Positions 2,647-16,152 of a stretch of DNA of 52,326 nt are shown piece by piece. The position numbers and the translations under genes are program-made. Location: assembly GCA_947624515.1 (NCBI GenBank), contig CANQKN010000003.1, positions 1-52,326 of the forward strand, written 5' to 3'. This DNA comes from an uncultured Bacilli bacterium. GTDB taxonomy: Bacteria > Bacillota_I > Bacilli_A > RF39 > UBA660. Numbering within the stretch: position 1 is the stretch's first letter; every line of letters starts with the position of its first letter. Under the pieces are notes generated by a model. The model was not told the DNA's origin. It was given only the letters and a program-made list of their open reading frames with translations, and searched no databases.

Positions 2647-3798
2647 ATGAATTATAATTGGGATATTGAAAAATTAGAAAAGCAGAAAAAAATCATTCAA
2701 AATTGTATTAGAATAACCAAAGGGTTAACCAAAGAAGAAATTCAATTTTTAAAAAGTAGTATTAAACAAATTAAAGAATTAGAAGATATTTTATTTAATA
2801 GATATCAATTGAACCAACCTCGGAAAATTCATTATATGGACTCCCATAAATTATTACCTATTAAAACTTATCAAGATTTTCAAAGCATTCCCTACTATAT
2901 CAAAGAAACTATTCTAAAAGCAACCAGGTTATTTAAAGATTTAGATGATACTTATGATAATATTCCTTTACCAATATTTAATGTTAGTAATCAAGATTTA
3001 GTAGAGATGTCATATGATTTCTATTCTCTATTACCGGATTCTTCTTTTCTAAAGGACTTTATTAAATATACAGATCCAAAAAAGCATCTGTTACAATTTA
3101 AAAATGCTCAAATGAAAGATATATTTGGAGGACAAACTTATATTTTTTATTATCCAAAGTATATTCCTTATTTTTTAATTTATAGAAGACATGATATTAG
3201 TGATTTTTTATCCTTAAATCATGAAATTAGTCATGCCATTATGTATCAACATGATACTTATACAGTAGATAAAAAAAATCATTATTTTTTAACGGAATTA
3301 GAAGGGTATTTTTTTGATTATCTTTCTATTCAATATCTAAAAAAATTTTATTCGGAAGAGGTAATTAATCAATTAGAGTATGATCGTATTACTGCTGTAT
3401 TAGAAGATTTTGCTACTATTTTTATTGACGATACTGCTATTCAATTATTTGAAAATAATAGAAAGATTACCCTTCATTCTATTAAGAATCGTTTTCAAAA
3501 ATGGAATCTTCCTTTTTCTATAAATTCTGTTCTTTTAAAAGAAACTTTATGGGAAGATGTGAGATATCATAGCTGTTGTATCCTTTCTCTTTTAACCAGT
3601 TTAGATTTAGAAATGATTTATGAAAAAGATCCTGAATATGCTTTCTATTTATTTGAAAAAATTAGAAATAATAAAACTGATCATATATTTCAAAATCTAG
3701 AAAAAAATGGAATCAGTTTTATGGGAGAAAGGGAAAACTATGATCCTTTTCAAAAGAAGATACAGTGGATTAATCAATTAGGAGAAAAAAGAAAATGA
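2647..3798 (+). CDS. Putative zinc metallopeptidase (gluzincin, M3-like)
   Basis: HExxH motif LNHEISHAIMYQH followed by ELEGYFFDYL. RBS GAGGGG upstream. Confidence 0.55.
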   Translation: MNYNWDIEKLEKQKKIIQNCIRITKGLTKEEIQFLKSSIKQIKELEDILFNRYQLNQPRKIHYMDSHKLLPIKTYQDFQSIPYYIKETILKATRLFKDLDDTYDNIPLPIFNVSNQDLVEMSYDFYSLLPDSSFLKDFIKYTDPKKHLLQFKNAQMKDIFGGQTYIFYYPKYIPYFLIYRRHDISDFLSLNHEISHAIMYQHDTYTVDKKNHYFLTELEGYFFDYLSIQYLKKFYSEEVINQLEYDRITAVLEDFATIFIDDTAIQLFENNRKITLHSIKNRFQKWNLPFSINSVLLKETLWEDVRYHSCCILSLLTSLDLEMIYEKDPEYAFYLFEKIRNNKTDHIFQNLEKNGISFMGERENYDPFQKKIQWINQLGEKRK

Positions 3799-3860
3799 TT
3801 CTATATTTTATAGAGTTACTAATAAAATAATTATTGACTTAATTCTTTATCATCATTTAA

Positions 3861-3892
3861 AAAAATACCATATCATTACTTATGGTATTTTT
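3861..3892. terminator. Intrinsic terminator between the convergent 2647..3798 gene and rlmH
   Basis: aaaaataccata-tcattact-tatggtattttt hairpin with A/T tails on both sides. Confidence 0.6.
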
Positions 3893-4331
3893 CATTGTTT
3901 AAAATTTTATAACTTCTAAATAACTGTTCTAATAATAAAATTCTAAATAATTGATGAGGAAAAGTCATTTTTGAAAAAGATAATTTAGCATTAGCCCTTT
4001 CTTTTATACTAGGATGAATTCCGTAAGAACCACCTATTATAAAGGTAATATCACTATTTTGAATCAAAGTTTTATCTAACTTATCGGCAAATTCTAGGGA
4101 AGATAATTCTTTTCCTTCAATCTCTAGTGTAATCAAAAACTCTTTTCCTGTAATGTGTTTTAATAGTTCTTTTTTTTCTTTTTCTAAAGCTACTTTTTCA
4201 TGATCAATTTCGGAATCCGGTAACTCTATTATTTCTATATTTGTATACTTTTTTAATCTCTTTACATATTCTTCTTGTGCTTCTTTTAAATAAGTTTCTT
4301 TTAATTTACCAATACAAATAATTTTAATCAT
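3876..4331 (-). CDS. rlmH: 23S rRNA (pseudouridine1915-N3)-methyltransferase RlmH
   Basis: MIKIICIGKLKETYLKEAQEEYVKRLKKY...FIIGGSYGIHPSIKERANAKLSFSKMTFPHQLFRILLLEQLFRSYKIL. Start trimmed to MIKI. Confidence 0.95.
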   Translation of the reverse strand: MIKIICIGKLKETYLKEAQEEYVKRLKKYTNIEIIELPDSEIDHEKVALEKEKKELLKHITGKEFLITLEIEGKELSSLEFADKLDKTLIQNSDITFIIGGSYGIHPSIKERANAKLSFSKMTFPHQLFRILLLEQLFRSYKILNNEKYHK

Positions 4332-4332
4332 A

Positions 4333-5094
4333 TTAAACCTCAATTTCTTCTAAGGATTCATATTGTTTCGCTACGAGAATTTCTTTATGAATATGATTTT
4401 TTTCTAAAAGATTCTTCGTTGTTTCTAAAGCTAATTCTTCCGTATTATTGTTTTCACTAATATGGGCTAAAATAATTTTTTTGGTTTTTTCTCCTACAAT
4501 ATCTAATAAATAGTTTGCAGTTGTTTCATTGGAAAGGTGACCTTTATCACTAATTACCCTTTGCTTTAATAGATAGGGATAAGGTCCTTCCATTAGCATT
4601 TCTTCATCATGATTACTTTCCATAATATAAATTTCTCTATTTTTTAATAAAGGAAAATATTTTTCATTAATGTAACCAGTATCTGTAATATAGACAAGAG
4701 AATGATTATTTGCCTCTAAAACAAAGCCTACTCCTTCAACATCATGAGAGATTCTAATTAAATCGATTTTTAAATCTTCCAAAACGAAAGAGTTATCATA
4801 GATGAAAATATTTTCTTTCGGTATTCTTTTAGATAATTCCTCTATCATTTCTTTTAGTGCATATACTTTTAAATTAGTTTTTTTCACTAAAGATGCCAAC
4901 CCTTTAATATGATCACTATGCGTATGAGTTATAAAAATAGCATCTAATTCTTTCGGAGAAACACCAACTGTTTCTAATTCGGTTACTAGATATTGATAAG
5001 TTATTCCCATATCAATCAAAATTTTTAATTTTTCGGTTTGGATAAAAGTACTATTTCCTTTTGATCCACTTGCTAATACTTTTACTTTCATCAT
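4333..5094 (-). CDS. MBL-fold metallohydrolase, YycJ/WalJ family
   Basis: VLASGSKGNSTFIQT...IFITHTHSDHIKGL; adjacent to rlmH as in other Firmicutes. Confidence 0.9.
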   Translation of the reverse strand: MMKVKVLASGSKGNSTFIQTEKLKILIDMGITYQYLVTELETVGVSPKELDAIFITHTHSDHIKGLASLVKKTNLKVYALKEMIEELSKRIPKENIFIYDNSFVLEDLKIDLIRISHDVEGVGFVLEANNHSLVYITDTGYINEKYFPLLKNREIYIMESNHDEEMLMEGPYPYLLKQRVISDKGHLSNETTANYLLDIVGEKTKKIILAHISENNNTEELALETTKNLLEKNHIHKEILVAKQYESLEEIEV

Positions 5095-6653
5095 CTAAAA
5101 ATGGTAGTATATGGATTTAAAGCTACCCCTCCTCTAAATGGATAACCACTATATAAACCAAAATGTAGGTGAACTCCTGATGCAAAACCACTTCTACCTG
5201 CAGTACCAATCTGATCATTTGACATAACAATATCACCATATTTTTTCGTACGAGAAGCCATATGAGCATACATCGTATAGTAACCATTACTGTGTTTGAT
5301 AATAATATAATTTCCGTTGGTACTATTATAAGAAGATTCTACTACAACACCATTATTCACAGCTTTAATTGCACTTCCATAAGTAATACCGGAAATATCA
5401 AGTCCCTCATGAAGTTTACCCCAACGCCATCCATAAGGACTACTGATTGTATATGGAGTCATAGTAGGCCATACCCAACTACCAATACCAACTGGTACAT
5501 CAATATTAGGATTATAAACTTGATACTGTTTCGTTCCTCTAGTTACTATCTTATTAATAGTTGGAACTAATTCTACAGTAGATCCGGGAACGGTAACAAT
5601 TTCTTTAATTTCACCATTTACTAACTGAATTTTTTGAGTAATTAATTCTAGTCCATCTTGACCTTCTTGTTCTACTCTCTCATACCCTACATATTGAGTA
5701 TCATCATTTTTATATATAGTTTCCATTGTTTTTACTTTTTTAGAAACAACATGTTCCACTTCTACTAAATCAAAAACAGGAGATATTAATCCTAATTTTA
5801 CTACTTGTCCAGGATATAATAGGTCTTGGGCTGTTTTAAAATTAGTATTAGCAATTAAAAATTCTTCGGTTGATAATTTATTATTATAGGAAATTTCTTC
5901 TATTGTATCCCCTGCTTTTACAATATAAGATTCCTGTTCTTTGGTAGTTCCAAAAAGTAAATATTTACTTAATTCCTCTTCTGTTTGATAGATCATATCA
6001 CCTACGGGAATACGAGTTTCCTTAATCATAATATTATTAGCAATACTGATATTTTCAATAATAGTTCCCTCTTCATTTTCCTCTAATTTTTTTTGAGTAT
6101 CATTTAAGTAACTATCATATTGATCACTATCAATGAAAGCAGTTATTGTTTTTCTAACAGAGTTAGTAAAAATATCTTTGTCTAATACATATAAGGTAAT
6201 ATCAGGAGTTGTAGTAACTGTCCCATCTTCATTTGATTTTTCAATACCATTAATTTTTATCTCATATCCATCAACAGTAAAAGAAGAAGGACCCATAATA
6301 TCTTCTATTTTTTGGTAAATTTCTTCTACCGAAAGAATGGTTTCATTATAAGTAATTTCTTTGATAATATCTAAATCATTGGGAGCATATACTTTATCAA
6401 CTTGATACTTTTCTTTTAATTGTTGTTGTTTTCCATCAATATAATCTAATAATTCTTTTTCTGACTCAATTACGCCAATTGATTTACCTGATAAATAAAT
6501 ACGATATAACTGGCGTGGAGTATTTGTATTTGTATAGATTCCAACAATTTTTGCATAAATTGTATTGGGATTTGATCCAATAAAGATAATTGCACATGAT
6601 AGTAAAAATGCTATTATGACAATTAAAATTTGTTTTTTACTCATTTTTTTCAC
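5091..6653 (-). CDS. M23 family metallopeptidase with LysM and G5-like domains
   Basis: LysM (YIVKAGDTIEEISYNNKLSTEEFLIAN), G5-like region (VSKKVKTMETIYKND...), C-terminal M23 (SPYGWRWGKLHEGLDISG...VHLHFGLY), N-terminal signal anchor. Confidence 0.9.
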   Translation of the reverse strand: MKKMSKKQILIVIIAFLLSCAIIFIGSNPNTIYAKIVGIYTNTNTPRQLYRIYLSGKSIGVIESEKELLDYIDGKQQQLKEKYQVDKVYAPNDLDIIKEITYNETILSVEEIYQKIEDIMGPSSFTVDGYEIKINGIEKSNEDGTVTTTPDITLYVLDKDIFTNSVRKTITAFIDSDQYDSYLNDTQKKLEENEEGTIIENISIANNIMIKETRIPVGDMIYQTEEELSKYLLFGTTKEQESYIVKAGDTIEEISYNNKLSTEEFLIANTNFKTAQDLLYPGQVVKLGLISPVFDLVEVEHVVSKKVKTMETIYKNDDTQYVGYERVEQEGQDGLELITQKIQLVNGEIKEIVTVPGSTVELVPTINKIVTRGTKQYQVYNPNIDVPVGIGSWVWPTMTPYTISSPYGWRWGKLHEGLDISGITYGSAIKAVNNGVVVESSYNSTNGNYIIIKHSNGYYTMYAHMASRTKKYGDIVMSNDQIGTAGRSGFASGVHLHFGLYSGYPFRGGVALNPYTTIFR

Positions 6654-9500: not shown

Positions 9501-9522
9501 AGAACTTGTGAAAGTTCTATCT
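9501..9522 (-). terminator. Intrinsic terminator after the 9517..10776 gene
   Basis: atagaacttgtgaaagttctat hairpin, T-rich on the minus strand. Confidence 0.55.
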
Positions 9523-10776
9523 TATTTTTCTTGGTTCTTCTATCGTTAAACTTAATTTTTTGATGTCTTCTTCGGAAATATAAATTACTTTACCGCCTGG
9601 TGGATTGATTTTGTTATCACCATAAGCAATCCAAATGGCTTTAACTTCTGTTTTTGGCATAGATGCACAACCATCTGTAAAAATTATTTTATTTTCAGCT
9701 TTTCCTGTAAAAGCATTCACTGCTACCTCAAAGTCAGTTCCACCTCTTCCTATAATAGGAAAATTATCTATATCTTCTTGGGTTTTTATTACTTGAAAGC
9801 CATAGAATTTTGTATCAAAACAACCAACACTAATCTCTGAAGTTTGAAGAATTGTTTTACATTCTCTCAAAGTGCTTCTAACTATGTTATCACTTACTGA
9901 ACTGCTTGTATCGATCACAATCTCTGTTTTTGGTTTCGGCTGTTCTTCTATATGTGGTATTACTACTCCATATTCTATGGTAGCATTTATAAATGACCAG
10001 TCTTCTTCTATTTTAGTAGCATTATAAAGTAATTGTTTCCAATTTAATAAATTACTGGCTTCTCCTATATTATCTAATTTTAGATTTTGTTCATCAGTAT
10101 TATTCCCAGCATTTATCATTTGATTTACCAATTGTTTTCTTAGTTTTTTCAGTTTTTGTTTTAATTCTTGTCTATTTTTTTGGAATATTTCTTTTTCGGA
10201 ACAGTCTTTTCCATTAGGTAGATCTTTTGTTTCTTCTTGATACCAACCACTATGGGTATCATGTCCTACATCATATTGTTTAAAATCTTGAGAGTTTTGG
10301 TATTCAGGAGAATGATTGTTTTTCTCTTTCTGATTATTTTTTGAATTTTTTTGTTTTTGCTTTTGATTCATTAATTTTTGATAATATTGTTCAGCACTAT
10401 AATTAATAGCTTCTGGAATATCAACTAATCCATCTATCAGTTTAAAACCATCTTTTTTTAAGTTTGTATTTATTACAGCATCTGTTGCTATATTCCAAAT
10501 TTTAGGATTTCTATCTTTACTTCTTTCATGATGCTTTAAATGGATATGCATTAGTTCATGAGCAAATAAAAAGGTTCTTTCTTCACGATCTAGGTTAGAA
10601 ACAAAATCAGGGTGATACTTTATTTTTGTTTTACTTGCTGCTGCTGTTGGATTTCCATTAAAATCAAAACAATTATAATCTGGGGCTATTTCTATATTAG
10701 CTAATGTACTTCCAAGAAAACTATATGTGAATAAAACATCTCTTATAATTTCTTCTATATTTATTTCACTCTTCAT
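9517..10776 (-). CDS. DUF2201-type putative metallopeptidase with C-terminal VWA-like domain
   Basis: FLFAHELMHIHLKHHERSKDRNPKIWNIATDAVIN (HExxH-type) and VIDTSSSVSDNIVRSTLRECKTIL...GRGGTDFEVAVNAF (VWA-like MIDAS residues DTSSS and T). Confidence 0.85.
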   Translation of the reverse strand: MKSEINIEEIIRDVLFTYSFLGSTLANIEIAPDYNCFDFNGNPTAAASKTKIKYHPDFVSNLDREERTFLFAHELMHIHLKHHERSKDRNPKIWNIATDAVINTNLKKDGFKLIDGLVDIPEAINYSAEQYYQKLMNQKQKQKNSKNNQKEKNNHSPEYQNSQDFKQYDVGHDTHSGWYQEETKDLPNGKDCSEKEIFQKNRQELKQKLKKLRKQLVNQMINAGNNTDEQNLKLDNIGEASNLLNWKQLLYNATKIEEDWSFINATIEYGVVIPHIEEQPKPKTEIVIDTSSSVSDNIVRSTLRECKTILQTSEISVGCFDTKFYGFQVIKTQEDIDNFPIIGRGGTDFEVAVNAFTGKAENKIIFTDGCASMPKTEVKAIWIAYGDNKINPPGGKVIYISEEDIKKLSLTIEEPRKIR

Positions 10777-10784
10777 AACATCAC

Positions 10785-11189
10785 CTACATTACAGCAACT
10801 AAGGAAGAAATCGTATCATTCATTGTTTCCTGATTAGATTTTCCAGCAATGATTATCACACAGTTTTTTGGTAGATTAAATACATTGACTTTTCTATATT
10901 TTAATAATTCCCCAAATTTTAGTTGTTCTTCTTTTGAAATACTAGATAGATCCTTAATTACTAAGAAGCAATAATTCTCATTCTCATATTGGTTTAATTC
11001 TTGATACCATGATGGTGGTAAAAATTCTTTTTCTTCATAATGCCCTGTTAATTCATTGATGTTGATATCTGCTGGTAAAATGACACTATTTTTATCAAAT
11101 ATATCTGATTGAATATTTTCAAGCAGAATAGGTACATAATGAGTCTTAATATAAGCTTCTATCATTTCTAATCTATCTTGATTTTTCAT
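10785..11189 (-). CDS. Uncharacterised protein resembling the Walker B-sensor 1 part of an AAA+ fold, without a P-loop
   Basis: YCFLVIKDLSSISKEEQLKFGELLKYRKVNVFNLPKNCVIIIAGKS resembles IHILFLDEITNVKSNYILNLAYNLILDRELDGKWKLPENARIVVAGNE of the neighbouring ATPases. No GxxxxGK[ST]. Confidence 0.5.
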   Translation of the reverse strand: MKNQDRLEMIEAYIKTHYVPILLENIQSDIFDKNSVILPADININELTGHYEEKEFLPPSWYQELNQYENENYCFLVIKDLSSISKEEQLKFGELLKYRKVNVFNLPKNCVIIIAGKSNQETMNDTISSLVAVM

Positions 11190-13047
11190 TTTTCGTCTCT
11201 CTTTCTAATTTTTCTAAGCGATGATTATCTCCTTGGGTCCATAAGTTATCAAATAAAGATAAGGTTTCTTCTCCTAATTTTTCTACAAATTCTCTTACAG
11301 TTTCTATGTGCTCTTCATCTACTTGTGATAGGGCTACTGCTGTTACTGCTTTTTCACTAAGATTCATATTTAAATCTTCTTCTGTATAATTTCCATTTAA
11401 AACGTCTTCTAATGTAATTACTCTTTGATTACAGAAGGCTATAAACTCTCTTGTTAGTGCTTCTCCTATTAAAGCTCTTAACATTTCTGGTTTTCCTGTT
11501 GTATATAACATCTTAGATGCCATCTCCCATTTCCTTGGATCGGCATTTGGCTTCTTTCCTGTATATGTCGTTCTTAATGCAGCTTCTCTTCTATAATTGA
11601 TAAAAGCATAAATCGCTGGATGGATCTTCTTTTCGACTTTTCCTTCTTCATAGTCTATCTTTCCATATTCTTCTATTGGTGTTGATGCCCAATTTAACCA
11701 ATCTTCTACTGTTGTATGAATATAAATATGAGCTAGTCTATTATATAATGGCTGTGGTATTTCTATTGCTGATATCGAATCTTCTACTTCATTTCCTGCT
11801 ACTACGATTCTAGCATTTTCTGGTAGTTTCCACTTTCCATCTAATTCTCGATCTAAGATTAAATTATAGGCTAGATTTAGGATATAATTTGATTTTACAT
11901 TCGTGATTTCATCTAAGAATAAAATATGAATTTTATCTTTTTCTTTTTGACATTTTTCTTCTAAACGCTTTAACCAGGTTGGTTTTACATCTATCATTTC
12001 TCCTGTTTCCTGATTATAGACACTTTTTCCTGCAAAGGAATCGGGATTTTGCGTGATCATATAGATGATTTCACAGTCTGGATCAAGTTCTTTTATACGA
12101 GCACTTTTTCCATCACTTGGTAAACCATGTAGAAAGGGGGCAATTCCACTTTTAATAGCTCCTATTATTATTTCTTCTTCGGTTACTTGATCAAAATTCA
12201 AGTTATATAGATTTTTCTTATTGAGTTCTTCTTTTTGTTTTAACATAGCTGTTCTTATATTTTCATTTTGGATATCTCTAATAAAATGAGTATTTAAAAA
12301 CCAGTACAAATTTGTTTGGGTAAAATCTCCTTTATAATTTTCTTCTAAATTAAATTGTACACCTGCAAATAAAATATCTTCTGATATAATTCTATCTTTT
12401 TTCAAATCTCCTAACCATTTAATAGGTTCTACTTCTACCCATACATAATCACCATTTTGATATTTTTTTTTATTAGATAAAGTAAATTCTATTTCATCAT
12501 AAAAATTTGCTTTTACTCTTACATATTTTTTCCCTTGATATTCATATTCAATATGTAATTGAGGTTCAAAATCTCCTTTGTCATCTTTTCTAGAATCTGT
12601 TGTATAGGTTTTTCCCGTCTTTTTTAGAGTTCCTTGATAATATTTTCTTTCTAATACTCTTTGCATATTTTTACCTACTACTGTTTGAGGATATTCTCCA
12701 TACTCTACTTCTAGAATGTTATCATGTGCCAACATTTGATTTGAACAGATGGAAGCGATGGAAGAGTACAGTAAAACTGGACGGCAACCAATATCACGTA
12801 GGCTAGCATTGTAGTTATAACTATTACCAGCACAATTAACAACACGCGCATTATTACCTTCATCGTCTGTTTTGGTCCAATACTGTCCTGTTCTATCTTT
12901 TAAAGCTTTAGATGCATTTCCTCCTAATAATATCGCAAAACCGGTTATTCTAGCACTAGCTCCTCTTTGTTTAAAAATATCTAATCGATTAGTATCATTG
13001 CCATAGATTTGATCTCTTGTTAATATATCAACAATTATATTATTCAT
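11173..13047 (-). CDS. MoxR-type AAA+ ATPase with N-terminal C-type-lectin/DUF6273-like modules (copy A)
   Basis: P-loop GLPSDGKS, Walker B IHILFLDEITN, sensor region ARIVVAGNE. N-terminal ARITGFAILLGG...YWTKT...GCRPVL and GEYPQ...NGDYVWVEVEPIKWL...ILFAGVQFN. Start trimmed to MNNIIVDIL by comparison with copy B. Confidence 0.85.
   Translation of the reverse strand: MNNIIVDILTRDQIYGNDTNRLDIFKQRGASARITGFAILLGGNASKALKDRTGQYWTKTDDEGNNARVVNCAGNSYNYNASLRDIGCRPVLLYSSIASICSNQMLAHDNILEVEYGEYPQTVVGKNMQRVLERKYYQGTLKKTGKTYTTDSRKDDKGDFEPQLHIEYEYQGKKYVRVKANFYDEIEFTLSNKKKYQNGDYVWVEVEPIKWLGDLKKDRIISEDILFAGVQFNLEENYKGDFTQTNLYWFLNTHFIRDIQNENIRTAMLKQKEELNKKNLYNLNFDQVTEEEIIIGAIKSGIAPFLHGLPSDGKSARIKELDPDCEIIYMITQNPDSFAGKSVYNQETGEMIDVKPTWLKRLEEKCQKEKDKIHILFLDEITNVKSNYILNLAYNLILDRELDGKWKLPENARIVVAGNEVEDSISAIEIPQPLYNRLAHIYIHTTVEDWLNWASTPIEEYGKIDYEEGKVEKKIHPAIYAFINYRREAALRTTYTGKKPNADPRKWEMASKMLYTTGKPEMLRALIGEALTREFIAFCNQRVITLEDVLNGNYTEEDLNMNLSEKAVTAVALSQVDEEHIETVREFVEKLGEETLSLFDNLWTQGDNHRLEKLERETKNEKSR
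11224..12152. repeat. Direct repeat, copy A: 929 bp with no mismatches seen against 13115..14043
   Basis: Line-by-line comparison at a constant offset of 1891 bp. First mismatches are at 11223 (g/a) and 12153 (t/g). Confidence 0.95.
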
Positions 13048-14971
13048 CTTGTTTATCACCTAGCTTTTTTTCTTTAGCTTTGACATGATTCTTTATTAAT
13101 CTTTCTAAGCGATAATTATCTCCTTGGGTCCATAAGTTATCAAATAAAGATAAGGTTTCTTCTCCTAATTTTTCTACAAATTCTCTTACAGTTTCTATGT
13201 GCTCTTCATCTACTTGTGATAGGGCTACTGCTGTTACTGCTTTTTCACTAAGATTCATATTTAAATCTTCTTCTGTATAATTTCCATTTAAAACGTCTTC
13301 TAATGTAATTACTCTTTGATTACAGAAGGCTATAAACTCTCTTGTTAGTGCTTCTCCTATTAAAGCTCTTAACATTTCTGGTTTTCCTGTTGTATATAAC
13401 ATCTTAGATGCCATCTCCCATTTCCTTGGATCGGCATTTGGCTTCTTTCCTGTATATGTCGTTCTTAATGCAGCTTCTCTTCTATAATTGATAAAAGCAT
13501 AAATCGCTGGATGGATCTTCTTTTCGACTTTTCCTTCTTCATAGTCTATCTTTCCATATTCTTCTATTGGTGTTGATGCCCAATTTAACCAATCTTCTAC
13601 TGTTGTATGAATATAAATATGAGCTAGTCTATTATATAATGGCTGTGGTATTTCTATTGCTGATATCGAATCTTCTACTTCATTTCCTGCTACTACGATT
13701 CTAGCATTTTCTGGTAGTTTCCACTTTCCATCTAATTCTCGATCTAAGATTAAATTATAGGCTAGATTTAGGATATAATTTGATTTTACATTCGTGATTT
13801 CATCTAAGAATAAAATATGAATTTTATCTTTTTCTTTTTGACATTTTTCTTCTAAACGCTTTAACCAGGTTGGTTTTACATCTATCATTTCTCCTGTTTC
13901 CTGATTATAGACACTTTTTCCTGCAAAGGAATCGGGATTTTGCGTGATCATATAGATGATTTCACAGTCTGGATCAAGTTCTTTTATACGAGCACTTTTT
14001 CCATCACTTGGTAAACCATGTAGAAAGGGGGCAATTCCACTTTGGATAGCTCCTATTATTATTTCTTCTTCGGTTACTTCATCAAAATTCAAGTTATATA
14101 AATTTTTCTTATTGAGTTCTTCTTTTTGTTTTAACATAGCTGTTCTTATATTTTCATTTTGAATATCTTTAATAAAATAAGTATTTAAAAACCAGTACAG
14201 ATTTGTTTGAGAAAAATTCCCTATATAATTAATTTCCTGATTAAATTGTACACCTGCAAATAGAATATTTTCGGCTATCGCGATATTATTTTTACTATCT
14301 ACTAACCATTTAATAGGTTCTACTTCTACCCAAATATAATCACCATTTTGATATCTTACACCATTAGATAGAATAAAGTTTTTTTCATCATAACTAGCAT
14401 TTGCTTTTACTCTTACATATTTTTTTCCTTGATATTCATATTCAATATGAGATTGAGGTTCAAAATCTGCTCCTTCTTCCTCATAGTTTCTAGAATCCGT
14501 TGTATAGGTTTTTCCCGTCTTTTTTAAGGTTTCTTTACAAAGTTCCATTTCTAATACTTCTTGCATATTTTTATCTACTGGTTGTTGAGGATATTCCCCA
14601 TACTCTACTTCTAGAATGTTATCGTGTGCTATCACTTGATTTGAAGAGATGGAAGAGATGGCAGAGTATGATAAAACGGGACGACAGCCAATATGACGTC
14701 TGTTAATATTAGTGCTGTTAAAATAACCAGAATAGTTAACAACTTTCACGCAAATACTTCCATCAGCTTTTTTGGTCCAATACTGTCCTGCTCTATCTTT
14801 TAAAGCTTTCGAATTATTTACATGGTCAATTTCAGATGCAACTCCTCCTAATAATATCGCAAAACCAGTTATTCTGGCTCTAGCTCCTCTTTGTTTAAAA
14901 ATATCTAATCGATTAGTATCATCACCAAATATTTGGTCTTCTGTTAGTATATCAACAATTATATTATTCAT
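13040..14971 (-). CDS. MoxR-type AAA+ ATPase with N-terminal C-type-lectin/DUF6273-like modules (copy B)
   Basis: Same architecture as copy A, with a near-identical C-terminal ATPase part and a diverged N-terminal part. Probable RBS GGGGAG upstream. Confidence 0.85.
   Translation of the reverse strand: MNNIIVDILTEDQIFGDDTNRLDIFKQRGARARITGFAILLGGVASEIDHVNNSKALKDRAGQYWTKKADGSICVKVVNYSGYFNSTNINRRHIGCRPVLSYSAISSISSNQVIAHDNILEVEYGEYPQQPVDKNMQEVLEMELCKETLKKTGKTYTTDSRNYEEEGADFEPQSHIEYEYQGKKYVRVKANASYDEKNFILSNGVRYQNGDYIWVEVEPIKWLVDSKNNIAIAENILFAGVQFNQEINYIGNFSQTNLYWFLNTYFIKDIQNENIRTAMLKQKEELNKKNLYNLNFDEVTEEEIIIGAIQSGIAPFLHGLPSDGKSARIKELDPDCEIIYMITQNPDSFAGKSVYNQETGEMIDVKPTWLKRLEEKCQKEKDKIHILFLDEITNVKSNYILNLAYNLILDRELDGKWKLPENARIVVAGNEVEDSISAIEIPQPLYNRLAHIYIHTTVEDWLNWASTPIEEYGKIDYEEGKVEKKIHPAIYAFINYRREAALRTTYTGKKPNADPRKWEMASKMLYTTGKPEMLRALIGEALTREFIAFCNQRVITLEDVLNGNYTEEDLNMNLSEKAVTAVALSQVDEEHIETVREFVEKLGEETLSLFDNLWTQGDNYRLERLIKNHVKAKEKKLGDKQDE
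13115..14043. repeat. Direct repeat, copy B: partner of 11224..12152
   Basis: As for copy A. Confidence 0.95.
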
Positions 14972-15110
14972 ACTGCTATCTCCCCAGTTTTTTGATTCCT
15001 ATGATATCACTTTTTCTATATTTTTACCAGTATTTTTGAATAAAATTAAGTTTTTAAGATTTTTATTTCTATTCCAATCTTTTTTATTCAATTTTTTTCA
15101 TAAAAAATAA

Positions 15111-15135
15111 AAGATGAACTTTTTTGGTTCATCTT
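15111..15135 (-). terminator. Terminator at the end of the rpsF-ssb-rpsR operon
   Basis: aagatgaacttttttggttcatctt hairpin overlapping the rpsR stop, T-rich downstream on the minus strand. Confidence 0.6.
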
Positions 15136-15349
15136 ACTTAGTATAAGGTAATAAAGCAATTGCACGAGCGCGTTTGATTTGTTCTGCTATATGCCTTTGA
15201 TGTTTTGCACAAGCTCCTGTAATTCTTCTTGGTAAAATCTTACCTTTATCGTTAATATATCTTTTTAAAGTTTCTACATCTTTATAATTGATATCTTTTC
15301 CTGTACACATGTAGCATACTTTTTTCTTTTTCTTATAAAATTCTGCCAT
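15134..15349 (-). CDS. rpsR: 30S ribosomal protein S18
   Basis: [71 protein letters not shown]. The supplied ORF starts too far upstream. Confidence 0.96.
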
Positions 15350-15365: not shown

Positions 15366-15848
15366 TTAGAATGGTAATTCATCATCACTAATCTCAATAG
15401 AAGATCCGAAATCTGCAAATGGATCATTTGATACATCTGTAGTTTGATTTGGAGTTGATGCAAAATCATATGGAGTTGCATTATCATTAAATGCAGGTTC
15501 CACATTACTTCCACCATTATTTGTATTAGCAGATCTTGTTCCTAAAAATTGAACATTATCAGCAACTACTTCTGTAACATATCTTTTTTGTCCATCTTGA
15601 CCATCATAACTTCTTGTTTGAATACGACCATCAATTGCTACTTGGCTACCTTTTGTTAGATAGTTTTTTACATTTTCAGCTTGTTTTCTCCAAACAACTA
15701 TATTAATAAAATCAGCTTCTCTTTCTCCATTTTGATTGGTGAAATTTCTATCAACAGCTAAACTAAATGTTGCTGTTGCGACATTACTACTAGTATATCT
15801 TAATTCTGGGTCTTTTGTTAATCTTCCGATTAAAAATACTTTATTCAT
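15366..15848 (-). CDS. ssb: Single-stranded DNA-binding protein
   Basis: [36 protein letters not shown]... with acidic C-terminal tip DDELPF. Confidence 0.96.
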
Positions 15849-15861
15849 TTTATTACCTCTC

Positions 15862-16152
15862 TTAATCTTCAACTTTTACTATTAAGTGACGAAGAATATT
15901 TTCATTAATTAATGATAAACGATCAAATTCTTTTGTTGCATTTAAATCTTCTGTTTCAATAGTAAATAAGAAATAATAACCTGTTTTATACTTATTAATT
16001 TCATAAGCTAATTCTTTTTGTCCCATCTCTTTTAGTTCTAACACTTTTGCATGATTAGATTCTAATACTGATTTCATATCTTCTGCTACTTGTTTAATAG
16101 ATGATTCTTCTAAATCAGGTTTTACGATGAACATAATTTCATACTTTCTCAT
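15862..16152 (-). CDS. rpsF: 30S ribosomal protein S6
   Basis: [37 protein letters not shown]...; directly upstream of ssb-rpsR. Confidence 0.96.

Follow-up and report, generated by a model that had tools for sequence, protein, structure and literature searches.

A probable orphaned variable region of a diversity-generating retroelement in tandem MoxR-type ATPase genes of an uncultured Bacilli bacterium

Diversity-generating retroelements (DGRs) of the Bordetella phage BPP-1 type possess a reverse transcriptase (RT) with a GxxxSQ-type motif, an Avd protein, and a template repeat (TR) that differs from the variable region (VR) of a target gene specifically at adenines. DGR surveys explain the C-terminal location of the VR by cis-acting homing elements that are needed after it. 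This location is near-universal among published targets (PMC8144416).

DGR-associated MoxR-vWA (VMAP) ternary conflict systems carry a DGR-diversified domain, presumably a sensor, within a MoxR/VWA gene set. The variable lectin domain is C-terminal and is usually fused to vWA or located on a separate target (PMC7159879; PMC10907252). MoxR-VWA systems have hitherto been described mainly from multicellular bacteria. Inactivated DGRs, where the RT is broken or lost and the target is left, have also been reported, and these retained intact TR/VR pairs (PMC3521204).

The window analyzed here is a stretch of 52,326 nucleotides from an uncultured Bacilli bacterium (contig CANQKN010000003.1). It carries two tandem target genes; in related genomes, such genes are accompanied by an RT with the GxxxSQ-type motif, an Avd-like protein, and adenine-specific TR/VR differences. 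Unlike the BPP-1 type, the VR of this family is found mid-gene near the N-terminus, and the genome of the window lacks RT and TR. Unlike in the MoxR-vWA conflict systems, the MoxR ATPase itself carries the variable domain, at its N-terminus, and the VWA partner is a DUF2201 protein. In contrast to the reported inactivated DGRs, the window's genome lacks the TR as well, and its orphan target is present in two copies. A search of the open-access literature found no description of a DGR that diversifies a MoxR ATPase at its N-terminus, and the N-terminal MoxR target is thus regarded as a new variation on known DGRs. The family is a clear natural exception to the C-terminal VR: homing is directed to the first fifth of a long gene, and such a mid-gene site could reveal the true cis requirements of DGRs. 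In this family, moreover, it is the MoxR ATPase of a MoxR-VWA set in gut Bacilli that is diversified by a DGR.

Tandem target genes and their variable segment

Both target genes are on the minus strand. Copy 1 (13040-14971) encodes a protein of 643 aa composed of a lectin-like N-terminal domain with the VR, a middle domain, and a C-terminal MoxR-type AAA+ ATPase. Copy 2 (11173-13047, with an alternative GTG start at 13059) is its tandem paralog. In each, the lectin-like N-terminus spans ~118 aa. The order on the minus strand is ssb (15366-15872), rpsR (ribosomal protein S18, identified by Pfam; 15134-15349, minus strand), target 1, target 2, a gene of 134 aa, and a DUF2201 metallopeptidase/VWA gene.

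The VR core of copy 1 is made up of codons 79-93 (14693-14737, minus strand; NYSGYFNSTNINRRH), which align with the TR/VR codons of relatives and precede a conserved IGCRPVL motif. The core of copy 2 (12793-12837, minus strand; NCAGNSYNYNASLRD) is placed by alignment with copy 1 and with the relatives. The initial annotation of this DNA described two 93-bp segments that align without gaps, change the amino acid at about 15 codons with few synonymous changes, and adjoin GCRPVL. The segments are indeed gapless, offset by 1900 bp on the minus strand inside the tandem paralogs; 15 of 31 codons carry replacements and 4 have synonymous changes, and IGCRPVL follows the core of copy 1.

Between the two copies, 11 of the 15 amino acids of the core differ (73%); to either side of it within the N-terminal half, the figure is 20-23% (Fisher p ~1e-4). 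The same annotation held that changes fall mainly on codon positions 1 and 2. This stands as a count, since 15 changes in the core affect positions 1/2 and 3 affect position 3, but not as an excess over the flanks (61:28, p=0.26). The density of replacements is therefore the real signal, and the position bias alone was dropped as proof since it is not significant against diverged flanks. Third-position (T/C) changes are also present in the VR. With only two copies in the window and no significant position bias, the pattern could be read as chance or an alignment artefact in two diverged paralogs. That reading is hardly credible in view of the replacement density, and it is already refuted by what the relatives independently show about the DGR, presented below.

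Divergence extends beyond the 93-bp segment. The copies share 74% identity over the first 129 aa and differ by ~14% at the DNA level over codons 1-290, while codons ~312-611 have 0 DNA differences. The identical stretch is the ATPase part (13139-14038 in copy 1, minus strand; counterpart at ~11248-12147). The identical ATPase halves are probably the product of recent gene conversion. Tandem paralogs with ~900 bp of DNA-identical ATPase and diverged N-termini have a near parallel at locus L033 (1.7% versus 18%).

The retroelement in related genomes

Relatives of the target are found in 6 of 17 genus genomes (the window's own counted), in 54 of 291 family genomes, and at 51 further loci. Hosts are mostly uncultured Bacilli, and the more distant ones are Clostridia. 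Copy 1 is 53% identical to RT-adjacent targets of the family. The cassette in relatives is composed of an Avd-like gene, the TR, the RT, the target, the 134-aa gene, and the VWA gene, in that order, and in several relatives the RT is directly upstream of the target. The VR occupies codons ~79-93 of ~640, near the N-terminus and not at the C-terminus. Family RTs match RVT_1 and contain the motif LGNQ[ST]SQ together with YMDD. Every family RT that is 60-100% identical to that of L020 has a target of this type next to it or, where the contig breaks off, is accompanied by Avd and TR. The adjacent Avd-like protein matches NF033474 over the full profile (E=4.5e-5, below the curated cut-off) and bAvd weakly.

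Templates in relatives are ~75-100 bp long and translate to the form ARVVN-x-N-G-N-R-N-N-N-N-V-N-K-R-N-G-G-ARP. This form lines up with the window segment as 15 variable codons followed by a constant stretch ending in RP. Across nine TR/VR pairs (L018, L019, L020, L024, L159, L160, L162, L163, and L164), 91 of 224 template adenines are changed versus 8 of 424 other bases (p=8e-39), and five of those eight belong to L160. The template of a tenth locus, L198, is laid out in the same way. L018, L019, and L020 have one common template and three different VRs; L018 and L020 differ at 12 of 45 bases in the 15 core codons but share 99% identity over the remainder of the gene. Among near-identical orthologs (the L018-L020 and L024-L026 groups), DNA divergence is 27-38% in the VR versus 0-3% in the rest of the gene in most comparisons. 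The highest value outside the VR is 9%, in the middle domain of L018/L019. The proposal of the initial annotation that this is DGR-type variation is thus supported: the orthologs are bona fide DGR targets over exactly the same codons, as shown by a DGR-type RT and an Avd-like gene next to them and by a TR whose differences from the VR are almost confined to adenines.

Two close pairs from Clostridia whose fetched loci contain no DGR cassette served as a control. These have 0 amino-acid changes in the equivalent 15 codons, versus 16-19% in the preceding stretch, so the segment is not variable by the nature of its fold. Pairs of more distant Clostridia show divergence throughout and are little informative. 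In the close comparisons made, variability accompanies the DGR lineages.

A template was sought for the group with L004, L005, and L016 and was not found. Other RTs in these genomes are 31-38% identical and have no template of the family type alongside in the loci scanned; action in trans is thus not supported. L198 corresponds to IMG/VR contig 3300006217_003178, which is listed as viral and reads Avd (split in two frames), TR, RT, target, 134-aa gene, and VWA gene. This one contig does not show a viral origin. Phage records contain no match to the N-terminal domain, and phage and plasmid matches are limited to the ATPase part.

Loss of the retroelement in the window lineage

The window's genome (89% complete, 72 contigs) contains no RVT_1 domain, family RT, or Avd-like protein. 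No template was found in it, either as DNA or as a pattern (N at variable positions, ≤3 mismatches). The earlier observation that the window lacks an RT and a template is borne out and, after a genome-wide check for both, holds for the 89%-complete assembly. The site where relatives have Avd, TR, and RT is an intergenic stretch of 162 bp between rpsR and copy 1 (14972-15133) that is empty of all three. L015, from the same genus, has the identical ssb-rpsR-target order without an RT. Among the 17 genus genomes there is no close RT, and the best match is 32% identical and contains stops.

An RT and TR in the missing ~10% of the genome could still act in trans on both copies. The incomplete, fragmented assembly leaves room for this, and a TR serving both genes would be expected to leave them with different patches. 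The cassette of relatives, however, is directly upstream in cis, and the equivalent site is assembled here and empty. The genus has no close RT, and the VR contains T/C changes at third positions, which are not A-directed. A DGR that is still active is thus very unlikely.

Phylogeny of the ATPase part places the window pair on a deep branch between RT-bearing lineages, with support of 98/94 and 100/100. One bracketing group includes L043, where the RT is present, and L167, where it is a pseudogene of which fragments are left. The other includes L159-L162, with the RT present, and L168. Relatives display several stages of loss. In L026 (4445-5932), the RT is truncated at its 5' end and joined to a MobV-like plasmid mobilization gene, and Avd and TR are gone. 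In L168 (minus strand, ~3690-5477 in reverse-strand coordinates), the template leader is joined directly to the VR, with loss of the RT and of ~80 codons at the start of the target, apparently by TR-VR recombination. In L025/L028, the cassette is gone and the target alone remains. This series from intact to lost allows the fate of a diversified sensor to be traced after loss of its mutator.

Differences between the window copies fall on 12 of 22 family TR adenine columns versus 13 of 50 elsewhere (p=0.03), which is modest support for a former target. The window lineage may instead never have been a DGR target, its variation arising in an exposed sensor loop through diversifying selection and domain swapping between tandem paralogs. 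The flanks and middle domain have also diverged (14%) with many replacements, and tandem paralogs with differing N-termini and near-identical ATPases recur, e.g., at L033. Nevertheless, this origin is improbable because the divergence peaks exactly on the DGR codons, the segment is conserved in the two close cassette-less Clostridia pairs, and the lineage is bracketed by DGR-bearing relatives.

The initial annotation offered a DGR target, a former target, or a site under strong diversifying selection. With no RT, Avd-like protein, or TR in the 89%-complete genome, the second of these readings, a former target, fits best, as also indicated by the empty cassette site, the tree bracketing, and the loss stages in relatives. 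The segment is probably the orphaned, frozen VR of a DGR target that lost its DGR, subject to the 89% completeness of the genome. Since no DGR component is found in this genome, it is the relatives that point to past activity in the lineage. Third positions and flanks differ between the copies as well, so decay of the VR or ordinary divergence contributes.

Domains, partner proteins, and proposed mechanism

The ATPase part of copy 1 matches phrog_1297 (E=2e-42), and its sequence matches MoxR family ATPases and phage ATPases. Foldseek matches it to NorQ (9qhd, 9qh8) and MCM AAA+ proteins. Walker residues G319/G324/K325 and D390/E391 are invariant. The target thereby resembles the NorQ/NorD MoxR-VWA chaperone pair, which also has a VWA partner; however, the matched NorQ chains are ~255 aa and thus have no counterpart of the N-terminal sensor half.

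The model of the N-terminal 285 aa is confident, with a pLDDT of 91.7. Residues 3-103 weakly match the C-type-lectin-like proteins rhodocetin and bitiscetin (Z 2.1-2.2), and L163 has a weak DUF6273 match. The model thus lends weak support to a C-type-lectin fold. Foldseek against PDB and BFVD gave no significant match for the N-terminal model, and a sequence-profile search of PDB gave weak partial matches at most. Pfam, NCBIfam, and PADLOC returned no confident domain in the window target.

Downstream, the DUF2201 protein (9517-10776, minus strand; Pfam DUF2201_N 1e-26, DUF2201 5e-12) contains metallopeptidase-like and VWA-like domains and is conserved at this place in relatives. It supplies the vWA component and is the presumed partner of the MoxR ATPase. 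From the ATPase matches and the VWA protein downstream, the two likely form a MoxR-VWA pair. PADLOC had no match for the target and VWA proteins of the window, and no VMAP or effector domain was recognized in the system. The 134-aa gene (10785-11189, minus strand) follows the target in many relatives and is conserved. The window's protein has no Pfam match, and the L020 ortholog matches AAA_5 weakly (E=0.088). This protein and its orthologs resemble a shortened AAA fragment without Walker A, possibly an inactive partner of the MoxR ATPase.

In the proposed mechanism, the RT of relatives would make random errors at adenines as it copies the ~75-100 bp template. The TR/VR anatomy and the adenine differences are observed in the loci themselves; by analogy with known DGRs, the cDNA would then take the place of the corresponding sequence in the early part of the target gene. 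An exposed patch of the lectin-like N-terminal domain would thereby acquire new forms. This patch, fused to the MoxR-type AAA+ ATPase, most likely recognizes a changing ligand, and the ATPase and the DUF2201/VWA protein would pass the signal on. Both steps are suggested by DGR biology and the published MoxR-vWA conflict systems (PMC7159879, PMC10907252). In the window lineage, the cassette would have been lost. The gene is present twice there, with a different, frozen patch in each sensor and an ATPase half made identical, probably by recent gene conversion.

In-frame TAA, TAG, or TGA is present in five of nine distinct templates (L159, L160, L162, L164, and L198, the last counted among the nine). 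A stop is also located inside the VR of three assembled targets (L159, L161, and L164). Judged from these sequences, DGR rewriting may also switch the gene off and make OFF alleles. A broader model can be put forward tentatively: a Bacilli DGR lineage rewrites an N-terminal MoxR sensor mid-gene, its often stop-bearing templates yield OFF alleles, and after frequent loss of the DGR the targets duplicate and survive as a small frozen-sensor repertoire with a homogenized ATPase.

Four small genomes of the set (G019, G020, G025, and G028) have four to five RVT_1 matches each, and some of these proteins may be DGR-type RTs with other targets. Genomes G120 and G246 have 26-33 first-look candidates for the target protein each. 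Several of those scored match the N-terminal and middle domains only, and the candidates are possibly a separate expansion.
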